From: Bacteroidaceae bacterium
Lineage (GTDB): Bacteria; Bacteroidota; Bacteroidia; Bacteroidales; Bacteroidaceae
Reading direction: 5' to 3'
Assembly: GCA_017428785.1 (NCBI GenBank)
Contig: JAFRQD010000046.1
Coordinates: 1-64,000, forward strand
DNA: 64,000 nt
This document shows positions 60,271 through 64,000 of this stretch, piece by piece. The notes under the pieces are model-generated. The model did no database searches. It worked only from the letters and a program-made list of their open reading frames with translations, and had not been told where the DNA came from. The translations under genes were made by a program, and so were the position numbers. The first letter of the stretch is position 1; every line of letters begins with the position of its first letter.

Positions 60271-61710
60271 CTACAGATCGAGGTTGACGCCGATGCCGAA
60301 GGTGTGGTTCTTGCGCTCGTAGACGTCTGTCTTGTCGTAGGGGCCTACTTTTGTTGTTACCTCACTATTGTTGTAGAATGTGCACATGTAACCGAGGTCG
60401 AAGCTGAGCCTCTTTGTGGCATTTATGCGGACGCCGGCACCAATCATGTTGTTCGTAAGGTTGAACGAGAGGTCGTTCATGAATTCATCATCCATGCCAT
60501 AACGCGTGGTTTCCCAAGAACCGGAAATGGTGATGAGCTTGCAGATGTCCCACTCAGCACCCAGGATGAACTCGTGTGTGTTGTGGCTGATGAGGTCCTG
60601 GCGATCCATGTACTTTGTGCTGACCTTGTCGAAGAACTGGTGGTAGGCGGCATCGAGGCGTACATTCTCAATCGGAGAGTACTGCGCACCGAGAGCAAGA
60701 AGTGCAGGAATGTCCTCGCGAACATGTCTGCCGTCCTCGAACTGGCCGAGGATGGGAGCGGCTTGTGCTCTGACTTCCTCGCTGGGAACATTGATCTCGC
60801 TCTTGTTCTTCATGTTCAGTCTGGTCGGGCACTCATATTTTGCCGACACATTCCATTTGTCGTTAATCTTATAATCAACACCCAGCACGACCGTTGCGCC
60901 AAAGCCAGTCTGGTCGCAATTCAACTCGATGCCGTAGTTGTTGAGAGCCTGCGTGTTGCTGATGATTCCCTGAGGAGTCTGAAGACTGTAGGCGATGGAG
61001 GGATTGACGGCGCCGTTGTAGTTGGCCGTAGCGTAGATGCCTCGTACGCCGACATAACCGGCAAGGTGGTTCGAGAACTGATAAGTGCCACCTATCTGCA
61101 AGCCGAAATGGTAATTCTTTCCTTTCATGAAGCTGTTCAAAGAGTAGCCCTTGAACTGACCTGTACCGGCAAGAGCGGAGGCAGTAGCAAGGTCGTAACC
61201 CCTTGCCAATAGCCCTTGTGCCAAAAGACCGGAAAGGACGCCGGGCGTTTGCATCTTCTGCATAATCATTGCCGAGTAGGCAGACTCGAAGGAACCGAGG
61301 CCTCTGTCGAACTCACACTTGCCGCCGCCGCCGCTGATGGCAAAGTGCGCCGACACGCTCCACTTGTCCTTATTATAAGAAACGGTAAAGGAAGGAACAG
61401 TAGGAGCCGTTGCCCTGCCCTCGAAACGATGGGTAGGGTTGGGATCGTCGGTGTTATACTTGAAAAGCGGGAAGGTCGTTTCGATGTTACGTTGCTGGAA
61501 AGCCGTCTGGTTGTTGAGACTCAAGTGCCATCCGTTCTCGAGGAAAGCGCCGCCGGCAGGATTGGCATAGATACTGGTTAAGTCAATCTTACCTTCCTGA
61601 GCGAAGTTGCGGACGAAGGCAGCATTCTGGTTGGTGTTGGTCAGGAGACCACCTGCAAATGCGCTGCTTACAGCTGCAAATGCCATTAAACTAAGGAGTG
61701 TTTTCTTCAT
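60271..61710 (-). CDS. FadL/OmpP1-family outer-membrane transport protein
   Basis: A 479-residue outer-membrane channel for hydrophobic compounds (OmpP1/FadL/TodX family). Signal peptide 1-19 (AFAGG); the N-terminal hatch region NTNQNAAFVRNFAQEGKID is family-typical, as are YANPAGGAFLENGW and the alternating beta strands to the end, closing in an aromatic-like tail (NHTFGIGVNLDL). It transports fatty acids or other hydrophobic molecules; specificity not inferable. A TTACCTTTGC box lies 30 bases before the ATG. Confidence 0.88.
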   Translation of the reverse strand: MKKTLLSLMAFAAVSSAFAGGLLTNTNQNAAFVRNFAQEGKIDLTSIYANPAGGAFLENGWHLSLNNQTAFQQRNIETTFPLFKYNTDDPNPTHRFEGRATAPTVPSFTVSYNKDKWSVSAHFAISGGGGKCEFDRGLGSFESAYSAMIMQKMQTPGVLSGLLAQGLLARGYDLATASALAGTGQFKGYSLNSFMKGKNYHFGLQIGGTYQFSNHLAGYVGVRGIYATANYNGAVNPSIAYSLQTPQGIISNTQALNNYGIELNCDQTGFGATVVLGVDYKINDKWNVSAKYECPTRLNMKNKSEINVPSEEVRAQAAPILGQFEDGRHVREDIPALLALGAQYSPIENVRLDAAYHQFFDKVSTKYMDRQDLISHNTHEFILGAEWDICKLITISGSWETTRYGMDDEFMNDLSFNLTNNMIGAGVRINATKRLSFDLGYMCTFYNNSEVTTKVGPYDKTDVYERKNHTFGIGVNLDL

Positions 61711-61748: not shown

Positions 61749-61955
61749 ACACAATTCTCCCGTTTGTGCAAGTTTTTCGTCGGGAAATGCACACAAAGAT
61801 GCCGTTTTGTGCAATTATGCAAGGAAAACACAAGCATAGGATTGTGCATTGCCTTAAATGAATTAACTTTGCATCTGTTTTGTATCTTTCAGGAAAAAAC
61901 AGTTATGGCCGTGCAGTCTTTTGGCAGTTCGTCGGACTATATAGAAGGAGGCATC

Positions 61956-63611
61956 ATGTTTACGATGGAGATAACACGGCTGATAGAACGATGCAGACAA
62001 GGCGATTCGGAAGCTCTCGGCGAACTGTACAAAGCGTACGCTCACAGGATGCGTGGCGTGTGCCGACGCTATATCTCCGACGAACAAACGGTCAGCGATG
62101 TGTTGCACGATGCGTTTGTGATTATCTTCACCTCTTTCGAAAAGCTGCGCGACGACAGCAAGGCCGAAGCTTGGATGATGTCAATAACGAGGAATGTTGC
62201 CTCGAAGTATAAGGACTATCAAGATGCGCATCGGACTTTCCTGCTTGAAGAAACAACCGAAACAAACCTTCTTGCAGAAAAGGCCGAAGAGCAGGATGTG
62301 AGGGGAATCCCTTTGGATGAGGTAATAAGACTAATTGATAGATTGCCTGAAGGATATGGGAAGGTGTTCCGCCTCTCGGTCTTCGATGGCTTGTCGCACA
62401 AAGAGATTGCCAACATCTTGGGCATTGAGGCGCATTCGTCCTCGTCGCAATTGGCACGCGCAAAGAAGATGCTTCGCAAGATGATGAGGCGTTACTGGCT
62501 TGTATTCATATTGCTTCTTGTCCCCCTTATCCTTATTCTGTACAGGAAAGATGGCGTCGCCCCAAAAGACGAAAAGCCTATCGTGGAGAAGCAAAAGCCT
62601 CTTCCTGTTGATTCGCATCACGAGGAGACGGGGGAACCTGCAATTGCCTCCGTGCCTAAGCATCAAGTAGCGGCAGTTGCTGCAGATACCGTGCAGGACG
62701 CAATAACTCAAGAACGGATAATGCCAGACACCTTGCAGGACAAGGAACAAGGCGATACAGTTCGTCCTGCCCCAAAGATAGAGGTAATACAGCACTATGA
62801 CATGGCCGACATAATCCATGATAATCCTCATCGGGGGACTCGTCATGAAAGAAAGTGGTCGCTTGAACTCGCATACGCGAGCGGCTTCGGCGAACAGCGC
62901 TTCAACCGTCCTTATGCTTTCACCGAGACGCCGATGATAAGTCCGACGGGCGAGGCTGCGTCGCCTGTCACGTTCGAAAACTGGAGCGACTATGCTGCAT
63001 ATCTTTCTGAACTCCCTGCCGATGTCAATTCGCATACGCGTAGCGTTATCATGAATGTGGCTTTGAACAATGCCAATCAACCCGGAACAGACAAGATTAT
63101 GCGAACGAGTCACCATTATATGCCTTTCACATGCTCGTTGGCATTGAAGTACAGTCTGAGCCATCGCCTAAGCTTAGAGTCGGGTCTGAGCTATAGCCGT
63201 CTTGTTTCCAACTTCGAAATGGGATCCGACGGCAATGCCATTCGCGAACATCAAGTCATCCATTATCTCGGAATCCCCGTAAAGGGTATATATAATATGT
63301 ATAACAGAAAGGCATGGAGCCTTTATGCAAGTGTCGGCATAACAGCGGAAATCCCCGTCTTCTCATCGTTGAGCAAAAGTTATTACTTGCACAATGTGAT
63401 AGCAGGCGCTGATGGAGAAAGCATCCATGCTCCGTGGCAGTGGTCAGTTGGCACGGGAATCGGCATGGAATATAAACTGACACCAGGCATCGGCCTCTTT
63501 GTCGAGCCGAGTCTGAGATACTATATCCCTACAGGCAGCCACATCGAAACTTACTATACCAAGCATCCGTTTACATTCTCCTTGCCTTTAGGTATAAGAT
63601 TTACATGGTAG
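61956..63611 (+). CDS. ECF sigma factor fused to a transmembrane segment and an outer-membrane beta-barrel
   Basis: A single 551-residue protein with an unusual architecture. Residues 5-85 are sigma region 2 (RLIERCRQGDSEALGELYKAY, HDAFVIIFTSFEKL, ITRNVASKYKDY, shown in parts); 121-178 are sigma region 4 (LPEGYGKVFRLSVFDGLSHKEIANILGI, a helix-turn-helix). Residues 180-196 form one hydrophobic segment; 200-298 are a Pro/Glu/Asp-rich linker; 299-551 are an OMP_b-brl-type eight-stranded barrel ending in GIRFTW. A strong AAGGAGG at about 61943 sets the ATG at 61956; the frame upstream is not coding. The layout resembles dual-membrane-spanning anti-sigma factors of Bacteroides, but the cytoplasmic part is a sigma factor. 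Confidence 0.85.
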   Translation: MFTMEITRLIERCRQGDSEALGELYKAYAHRMRGVCRRYISDEQTVSDVLHDAFVIIFTSFEKLRDDSKAEAWMMSITRNVASKYKDYQDAHRTFLLEETTETNLLAEKAEEQDVRGIPLDEVIRLIDRLPEGYGKVFRLSVFDGLSHKEIANILGIEAHSSSSQLARAKKMLRKMMRRYWLVFILLLVPLILILYRKDGVAPKDEKPIVEKQKPLPVDSHHEETGEPAIASVPKHQVAAVAADTVQDAITQERIMPDTLQDKEQGDTVRPAPKIEVIQHYDMADIIHDNPHRGTRHERKWSLELAYASGFGEQRFNRPYAFTETPMISPTGEAASPVTFENWSDYAAYLSELPADVNSHTRSVIMNVALNNANQPGTDKIMRTSHHYMPFTCSLALKYSLSHRLSLESGLSYSRLVSNFEMGSDGNAIREHQVIHYLGIPVKGIYNMYNRKAWSLYASVGITAEIPVFSSLSKSYYLHNVIAGADGESIHAPWQWSVGTGIGMEYKLTPGIGLFVEPSLRYYIPTGSHIETYYTKHPFTFSLPLGIRFTW

Positions 63612-63673
63612 TGGTGCAGTCATCCGTTGCATAATCGGACTTATTTAATAGAGAACAATATGCAACGAAAGCT

Positions 63674-64000
63674 ATGTACAACATCTATGATTATGCTTAC
63701 AACGGATTCCTCTACTTGAATAATATGGCAAGGCCGAGGCACAAACTGCTGTCGGGGCTGATGATATACTCAACCACACTTTGCCAGTCGAGATGCAAGC
63801 ATTGCAACATTTGGCAAAAGCCACCAGAGCATCTGCCATTCGAAGATATCAAAAGAGTGATGGAGAGTCGCTGCATAACTCGTCGGACAACCGTTGGTTT
63901 GGAAGGCGGAGAGTTTGTCTTGCATCCGCAGGCCTATGAGATTATGGCGTGGTTCAGAGAGCATCATCCCAATTATACTTTGCTATCGAATTGTCTCGCA
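63674..64000 (+). CDS. radical SAM protein, 5' part only
   Basis: The first 109 residues of a radical SAM enzyme, cut by the window end. After a 30-residue leader the CxxxCxxC site that binds the 4Fe-4S cluster is CQSRCKHCNIW (near residue 37), followed by EDIKRVMES and LEGGEFVLHP, the GGEP-like SAM-binding motif. This resembles AstB/PqqE-type and oligosaccharide-modifying proteins. It lies 62 bases after the sigma-barrel fusion on the same strand, so it may be its neighbour in an operon. Its substrate is not inferable. Confidence 0.8.
   Translation, partial: MYNIYDYAYNGFLYLNNMARPRHKLLSGLMIYSTTLCQSRCKHCNIWQKPPEHLPFEDIKRVMESRCITRRTTVGLEGGEFVLHPQAYEIMAWFREHHPNYTLLSNCLA

Follow-up and report, generated by a model that had tools for sequence, protein, structure and literature searches.

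The window, that is, the whole stretch of 64,000 nucleotides that was analysed, harbors a gene in which an ECF sigma factor and a small beta-barrel are encoded in one frame, preceded by a promoter-like element and a ribosome-binding site (Table 1). A sequence-only reading of the same DNA had proposed one 551-residue frame with the order sigma domain, membrane helix, tether and barrel, and a strong ribosome-binding site; both proposals were borne out, the former by Pfam, AlphaFold2 and Foldseek. No sigma gene adjoins the fused gene, which lies between an OmpP1/FadL-like gene and a radical SAM gene. The assembly of this genome is a fragmented draft of 71 contigs, 84% complete.

Table 1. Features at the locus of the fused gene (residue numbers refer to the fused protein).
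Feature	Position	Strand	Basis
OmpP1/FadL-like gene, upstream	60271-61710	divergent	neighbour of the fused gene
-35-like half of the element, TGCAGTCTTTT	61912..61922	+	conserved ahead of 97 of 98 distinct fused genes
-10-like half, GGACTAT, 15 bases past TGCAGTC	61934..61940	+	conserved element
Ribosome-binding site AAGGAGG	61945..61951	+	sequence
Fused sigma-barrel gene, 551 aa plus stop	61956..63611	+	single uninterrupted open frame
Sigma region 2, residues 24-85	62025..62210	+	Pfam PF04542
Sigma region 4, residues 121-173, containing HSSSSQ (160-165)	62316..62474	+	Pfam PF08281
Membrane helix with proline, about residues 177-197	62484..62546	+	hydrophobicity, AlphaFold2 model
Disordered tether, residues 198-300	62547..62855	+	pLDDT below 50 at 198-296
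Eight-stranded barrel, residues 301-551, ending in Trp	62856..63608	+	Pfam, AlphaFold2, Foldseek
Second copy of the element, ahead of the radical SAM gene	63615..63643	+	pattern match
Start of the radical SAM/SPASM gene (to contig position 64762)	63674..64000	+	family search
Gfo/Idh/MocA-family gene, outside the window	64728-65753		family search

Domains and predicted structure of the fused protein

Sigma70_r2 (residues 24-85), Sigma70_r4_2 (121-173) and Sigma70_ECF (PF07638, 5-174) matched the fused protein above their curated Pfam cut-offs, and regions 2 and 4 lie in one compact domain, as in an ECF sigma factor. OMP_b-brl_2 was also matched above its curated cut-off (residues 390-524), the OMP_b-brl family itself scoring below its own. 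Just one hydrophobic window was found (residues 177-195); it is preceded by a basic stretch, which fits an N-terminus lying in the cytoplasm.

The AlphaFold2 model was built on an alignment of 46 relatives. The sigma part is mostly predicted with a pLDDT of 79-96, with residues 94-117 disordered, and residues 159-196 form one unbroken helix running from region 4 through the membrane segment. Residues 198-296 are disordered (pLDDT below 50), and the barrel (301-551) is confidently predicted, mostly above 90, with an insertion containing a helix after strand 1. The overall pTM of 0.50 is as expected, because the folded parts are joined by a disordered tether. Foldseek searches against the PDB retrieved sigma-E as the best fold match of the sigma part (1or7, E-value 1.1e-8) and eight-stranded OmpA-type barrels for the barrel part (9fzc, target TM-score 0.66; 1bxw, 0.54). 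The sequence-only reading had staked its claim on a folded barrel, and the barrel does fold in the prediction.

In 112 distinct fused frames, the best hydrophobic window starts close to where the sigma domain ends, at offsets of -6 to +6 residues (median 1). There is therefore no room for an anti-sigma domain; the one known from Dma proteins is, judging from these sequences, absent from the fused proteins, and the sigma factor stands in its place, as the earlier reading had supposed. Between helix and barrel we met just a disordered, poorly conserved tether and no periplasmic anti-sigma domain of the IutY type. This stretch measures 97-140 residues (median 117) in the 102 measurable frames, and such a constant length despite poor conservation is as expected if the tether has to cross the periplasm.

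A proline in the helix occurs in 79 of 84 fused proteins and, in a larger set for which the helix window differed slightly, in 98 of 112 distinct frames (14 lack it), compared with one of 21 Dma rows, three of which are repeats; some Bacteroides fused members are without it. Helix-breaking residues favour cutting by RseP. The accessible part of PMC8144685 held no usable support for a helix-breaking residue in RseP substrates.

Conservation and origin of the fusion

The homologues with the same order that the sequence-only reading had advised looking for were found: 75 of the 80 named loci carry sigma domain, helix, tether and barrel in a single full-length frame, the remaining five being located at contig ends (L102, L120) or interrupted (L100, L106, L116). 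Among the named relatives, the nearest come from genome bins of uncultured Bacteroidales/Prevotellaceae (L041, L042). In close relatives sigma factor and barrel are likewise joined, and the separate sigma gene that would have spoken against the fusion was not seen in them.

A wider set across the loci comprised 143 fused frames, 112 of them distinct. The C-terminal residue is Trp in 110 of the latter (one has Tyr and one, at a contig end, Ala) and in all 84 distinct proteins of a smaller set. At the family level, end-to-end alignments were obtained in at least 68 of 398 genomes, two of them with one in-frame stop. At the order level (148 genomes), among the matches listed, only the window's genome and G619 gave end-to-end alignments and G102 a broken copy of the fused gene; unfused sigma genes and barrel genes are widespread across the same 148 genomes.

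Mean conservation is 0.80 for sigma region 2, 0.86 for region 4 and 0.69 for the barrel, the least conserved parts being the tether (0.49) and the residues just before the barrel (0.48). Comparison with the orthologue L012 (89% identical) gave dN/dS values of 0.07 for the sigma part, 0.34 for the tether and 0.17 for the barrel; according to these values, both folded ends are under purifying selection.

These data bear on two readings in which no such protein would exist. A gene-model or assembly artefact joining two genes might be suspected in a draft of 71 contigs, the more so as three of the 80 named loci are interrupted; since 75 loci keep the order in one frame, as do the 112 distinct frames, and since both ends are under purifying selection, we take the fusion to be real and the chance of an artefact to be negligible. 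It is also very improbable that sigma factor and barrel are made as two proteins, with the helix acting as a signal peptide or an internal start giving a separate barrel. Met codons do lie directly ahead of the helix in the window protein, but these residues are not retained in the Bacteroides members, and sigma factor and barrel share one frame in the same 75 loci.

Related genomes harbor two-gene pairs, in which a sigma gene is followed by a gene for a protein with an anti-sigma-like N-terminal part, a helix, a tether and a barrel. In a tree of the sigma sequences (70 rows), the fused sigmas form one clade (support 100/100) beside the Das-type sigmas; it includes the fused gene L168, in which the frame ends within the region 4 signature HSSSSQ. 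This signature is present in all 143 fused frames. Elsewhere it was found in nine sigma-only frames from four genomes (repeat copies included), all adjoining a barrel frame and representing interrupted fused genes.

The fused barrels group at 100/97, with two anti-sigma-type proteins, L028 and L033, nested inside; therefore, the barrel tree alone is not proof of a single fusion, and we dropped it as a second test of one origin. The nesting probably means that the barrel was transferred to another anti-sigma protein at a later time. Both genes (L028:3-1631 (-) and L033:481-2040 (+)) carry fused-clade barrels on an anti-sigma-like N-terminal part without a sigma domain, a hint that the barrel sensor might be swappable between regulators.

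In two genomes (L106/L143 and L173/L181), one break within the tether divides the fused gene into a sigma-plus-helix frame and a barrel frame, the cause being sequencing error, decay or a real split.

A promoter-like element and the neighbouring genes

The promoter-like element reads TGCAGTC-N15-GGAC, with TATC or CATC as variants of the second half. GCAGTC occurs within 160 bases ahead of 97 of 98 distinct fused genes, almost invariably in the form TGCAGTCTTT, the 98th having GCAGCC; about 15 bases past TGCAGTCTTT, GGAC is found in the Prevotella-like majority and TATC or CATC in the others. The distance from the element to the start codon ranges from 41 to 122 bases. Out of 36 sigma-only genes, three have GCAGTC, all of them fused fragments (L026, L116, L168); it is absent from the other 33 unfused Das rows, some of which were fetched twice. 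Several unfused rows have related motifs as judged by eye: TGCAGTA, TGCAAC and TGCAGC lie at similar places in unfused Das upstream stretches (e.g., L189, L196, L199), which suggests that region 4 and promoter may have changed together among Das and fused sigmas. A housekeeping promoter was also considered and rejected: TAnnTTTG appears in just 22 of 98 upstream stretches, at scattered distances, and lacks conservation, although the window does contain one copy.

The pattern was then matched in 40 genomes of the window's genus, 20 with the fusion and 20 without, the same pattern read backwards being the control; the fusion-less genomes are incomplete drafts, in which absence of the fusion is not proof. 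Genomes with the fusion gave 54 matches (10 backwards) and those without gave 18 (6 backwards); the canonical second half was present in 41 of the 54 (in 16 genomes) versus one of the 18. One of the 41 (G032:C100) resembles the single canonical site of the fusion-less G027, and the two may be coding sequence shared by both genomes. Four genomes with the fusion have no canonical site; three of them (G013, G034 and G052; L022-L024) have the element at a spacing one base longer than the pattern permits, the fourth being G214. From this co-occurrence we infer that the fused sigma, and not another regulator, would read the element.

Three sites in the window's genome match the pattern; they lie ahead of the fused gene (61912), of the next gene (63615) and of a second fused gene on contig C52. 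Fourteen pattern sites, 63615 included, were inspected, and only those at the two fused genes and at the radical SAM gene appeared promoter-like (the rest judged by eye). The second fused gene (L219/L275; G000:C52:50735 to the contig end at 50824) is cut by the contig end and belongs to the subfamily whose -10-like half reads GTATC; about 4.3 kb ahead of it there is an RseP gene.

The genes downstream were surveyed in 89 loci with at least 1.5 kb of downstream sequence, six gene types being sought within 3.5 kb. Radical SAM genes were found in 59 loci, small lipoprotein-like genes in 55, Gfo/Idh/MocA-family genes in 54 and, as read from the translations and not from a family search, methyltransferase genes in eight and glycosyltransferase genes in two; seven loci have no lipoprotein, radical SAM, methyltransferase or glycosyltransferase gene within this distance. 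The element precedes 62 of 64 radical SAM genes, 54 of 62 lipoprotein genes, four of eight methyltransferase genes, one of three genes for a long exported protein and none of the glycosyltransferase (0/2) or Gfo/Idh/MocA (0/54) genes, in comparison with two of the 601 remaining frames of 200 aa or more at these loci, a control in which many frames are not real genes; the relatives counted here are not independent. The search for a regulon called for by the sequence-only reading has in this way placed the element ahead of the fusion and of the neighbouring radical SAM and lipoprotein genes.

The Gfo/Idh/MocA genes seem to share the radical SAM transcript. A TTATC variant, missed by the strict expression, lies ahead of the methyltransferase gene in both L256 and L261 and of the glycosyltransferase gene in L257. 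Our guess is that the neighbour enzymes modify surface glycans. The divergent OmpP1/FadL-like gene was discarded as a partner, a related gene being found there in just 3 of 89 loci.

The small lipoprotein-like protein (about 188 aa) has an invariant Cys after a signal-like start, and its gene has its own element (L013:866-1429 (-) and 19 others); it is absent beside the window's fused gene. A relationship with NigD was rejected, with no match in Pfam (two members) or NCBIfam (one member). Moreover, a 20-row profile gave no sequence match in the PDB and a model of mean pLDDT 75 no fold match with E below 0.001; the protein is left as an orphan. In one subfamily (L262:8462-11296 (+) and L263 (-)), a long exported protein of 932-944 aa is encoded 3' of the methyltransferase gene, that of L262 having its own copy of the element.

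Known systems and a possible mode of action

Dma1-3 of B. thetaiotaomicron have been described in PMC13088901. According to the accessible part of that paper, Dma3 (bt_2778-2779) is a Dma family member with a sigma factor as its own N-terminal domain and without an ECF21 sigma gene beside it; expression of its locus goes up in dma1 and dma2 mutants, whose vesicle profile does not revert when it is deleted. The window protein likewise has an N-terminal sigma domain on a barrel protein and no adjacent sigma gene, the two being compared by description and not by sequence. The sequence-only reading knew of no characterised example of this order; as the architecture has a named precedent already in print, its claim of novelty is right only in part. 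The same part of PMC13088901 gives no promoter, targets or mechanism, the accessible parts of PMC12596196 and PMC7366714 contain no mention of BT_2778/2779, and no paper on the promoter or targets of a sigma-barrel fusion was found in a search that left most subscription papers outside. The promoter-like element, the likely targets, the family history and the differences from the Das/Dma pairs are the new contribution here.

The sigma and barrel parts of the fused protein are homologous to those of the Das/Dma pairs (Dma1/Das1, Dma2/Das2; EcfO/Reo), with which it shares a sigma that, by its place beside the Das sigmas in the tree, would be of the ECF21 type, a single helix, a long disordered tether and a C-terminal barrel. 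The pairs differ, however, in consisting of two genes, with an anti-sigma domain ahead of the helix, and in having another region 4 signature and other upstream motifs. As far as the accessible texts go, IutY of Pseudomonas putida combines a sigma factor with a periplasmic anti-sigma domain and undergoes processing by Prc and RseP (PMC5411451, PMC8999054). It resembles the fusion in having sigma domain and membrane anchor in one chain, with proteolytic release on an outer-membrane signal of the kind proposed below, but it has the periplasmic anti-sigma domain, needs a separate outer-membrane receptor and has no barrel of its own. The actinobacterial ECF48, ECF52 and ECF53 (PMC8999054, accessible part) also have a C-terminal membrane-spanning extension and an expected proteolytic activation, whereas they carry a zinc-finger anti-sigma-like domain and no outer-membrane barrel.

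We consider it fairly probable that the fused protein is a single-chain trans-envelope switch of the Dma3 kind, i.e., an autoregulated, tethered sigma factor freed by proteolysis on a barrel signal. The domain order, the predicted folds, the single sigma clade, the absence of an anti-sigma domain and the element with its tie to the locus come from sequence and comparison; from them we infer the topology, the inactivity while tethered, the reading of the element by the sigma, the proteolysis, the signal and the enzyme roles. The ECF sigma domain would lie in the cytoplasm, pinned to the inner membrane by the helix that continues from the -35-reading region, with the tether of about 100 residues spanning the periplasm and the small barrel sitting in the outer membrane. 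Because there is no anti-sigma domain, unlike in the Das/Dma pairs, tethering itself most likely holds the sigma domain inactive. The tether would most likely become exposed to a periplasmic protease upon a change at the outer membrane, either a failing barrel or a surface signal; an RseP-type protease would then cut the membrane helix and free the sigma domain. Outer-membrane stress is a possible signal; it has been put forward for EcfO/Reo in the accessible parts of PMC9308784 and PMC13114119. The freed sigma would read TGCAGTC-N15-GGAC/TATC promoters and raise expression of its own gene and its neighbours, the putative targets being the radical SAM enzyme and the oxidoreductase, in many relatives the small lipoprotein and in other lineages the methyltransferase. 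The site-2-type protease sought at the suggestion of the sequence-only reading is present as an RseP-family gene in the window's genome, which says little, because all 14 control genomes carry one too.

A bolder formulation, in which doubt slightly outweighs belief, is that one chain holds a whole surface-signalling pathway: the barrel as sensor, the tether as wire, the membrane as inhibitor (region 4 being locked to the bilayer by the continuous helix), intramembrane cutting as switch, and a private promoter serving little beyond its own locus. If true, a transcription factor tied to the outer membrane without an anti-sigma partner would be a very short route from surface to promoter; the element, the likely targets, the single sigma clade and the differences from the Das/Dma pairs make the function and release of the fusion experimentally answerable.

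The main rival, which we hold to be unlikely, is that the sigma is active while tethered and draws RNA polymerase to promoters near the inner membrane, with the barrel placing or tuning it and no proteolysis involved. In agreement with this reading, the locus showed neither a cleavage site nor a dedicated protease; however, region 4 running into the membrane helix should hinder binding to the -35 element, the helix proline marks the fused family, and the analogous fused sigmas in the accessible part of PMC8999054 are all placed under proteolytic activation. Alternatively, an anti-sigma protein encoded separately and unlinked, or the sigma's own barrel or tether part reaching back, could keep it off in place of the tether alone, an arrangement that we regard as decidedly unlikely. 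Anti-sigma proteins are the usual partners of ECF sigmas, and a genome 84% complete leaves room for one, but the downstream census of six gene types, which is a weak test, showed no anti-sigma gene of the Das/Dma type next to the fused genes, and the genome's other OMP_b-brl_2 matches are frames of 225-337 aa, shorter than the Dma frames elsewhere.
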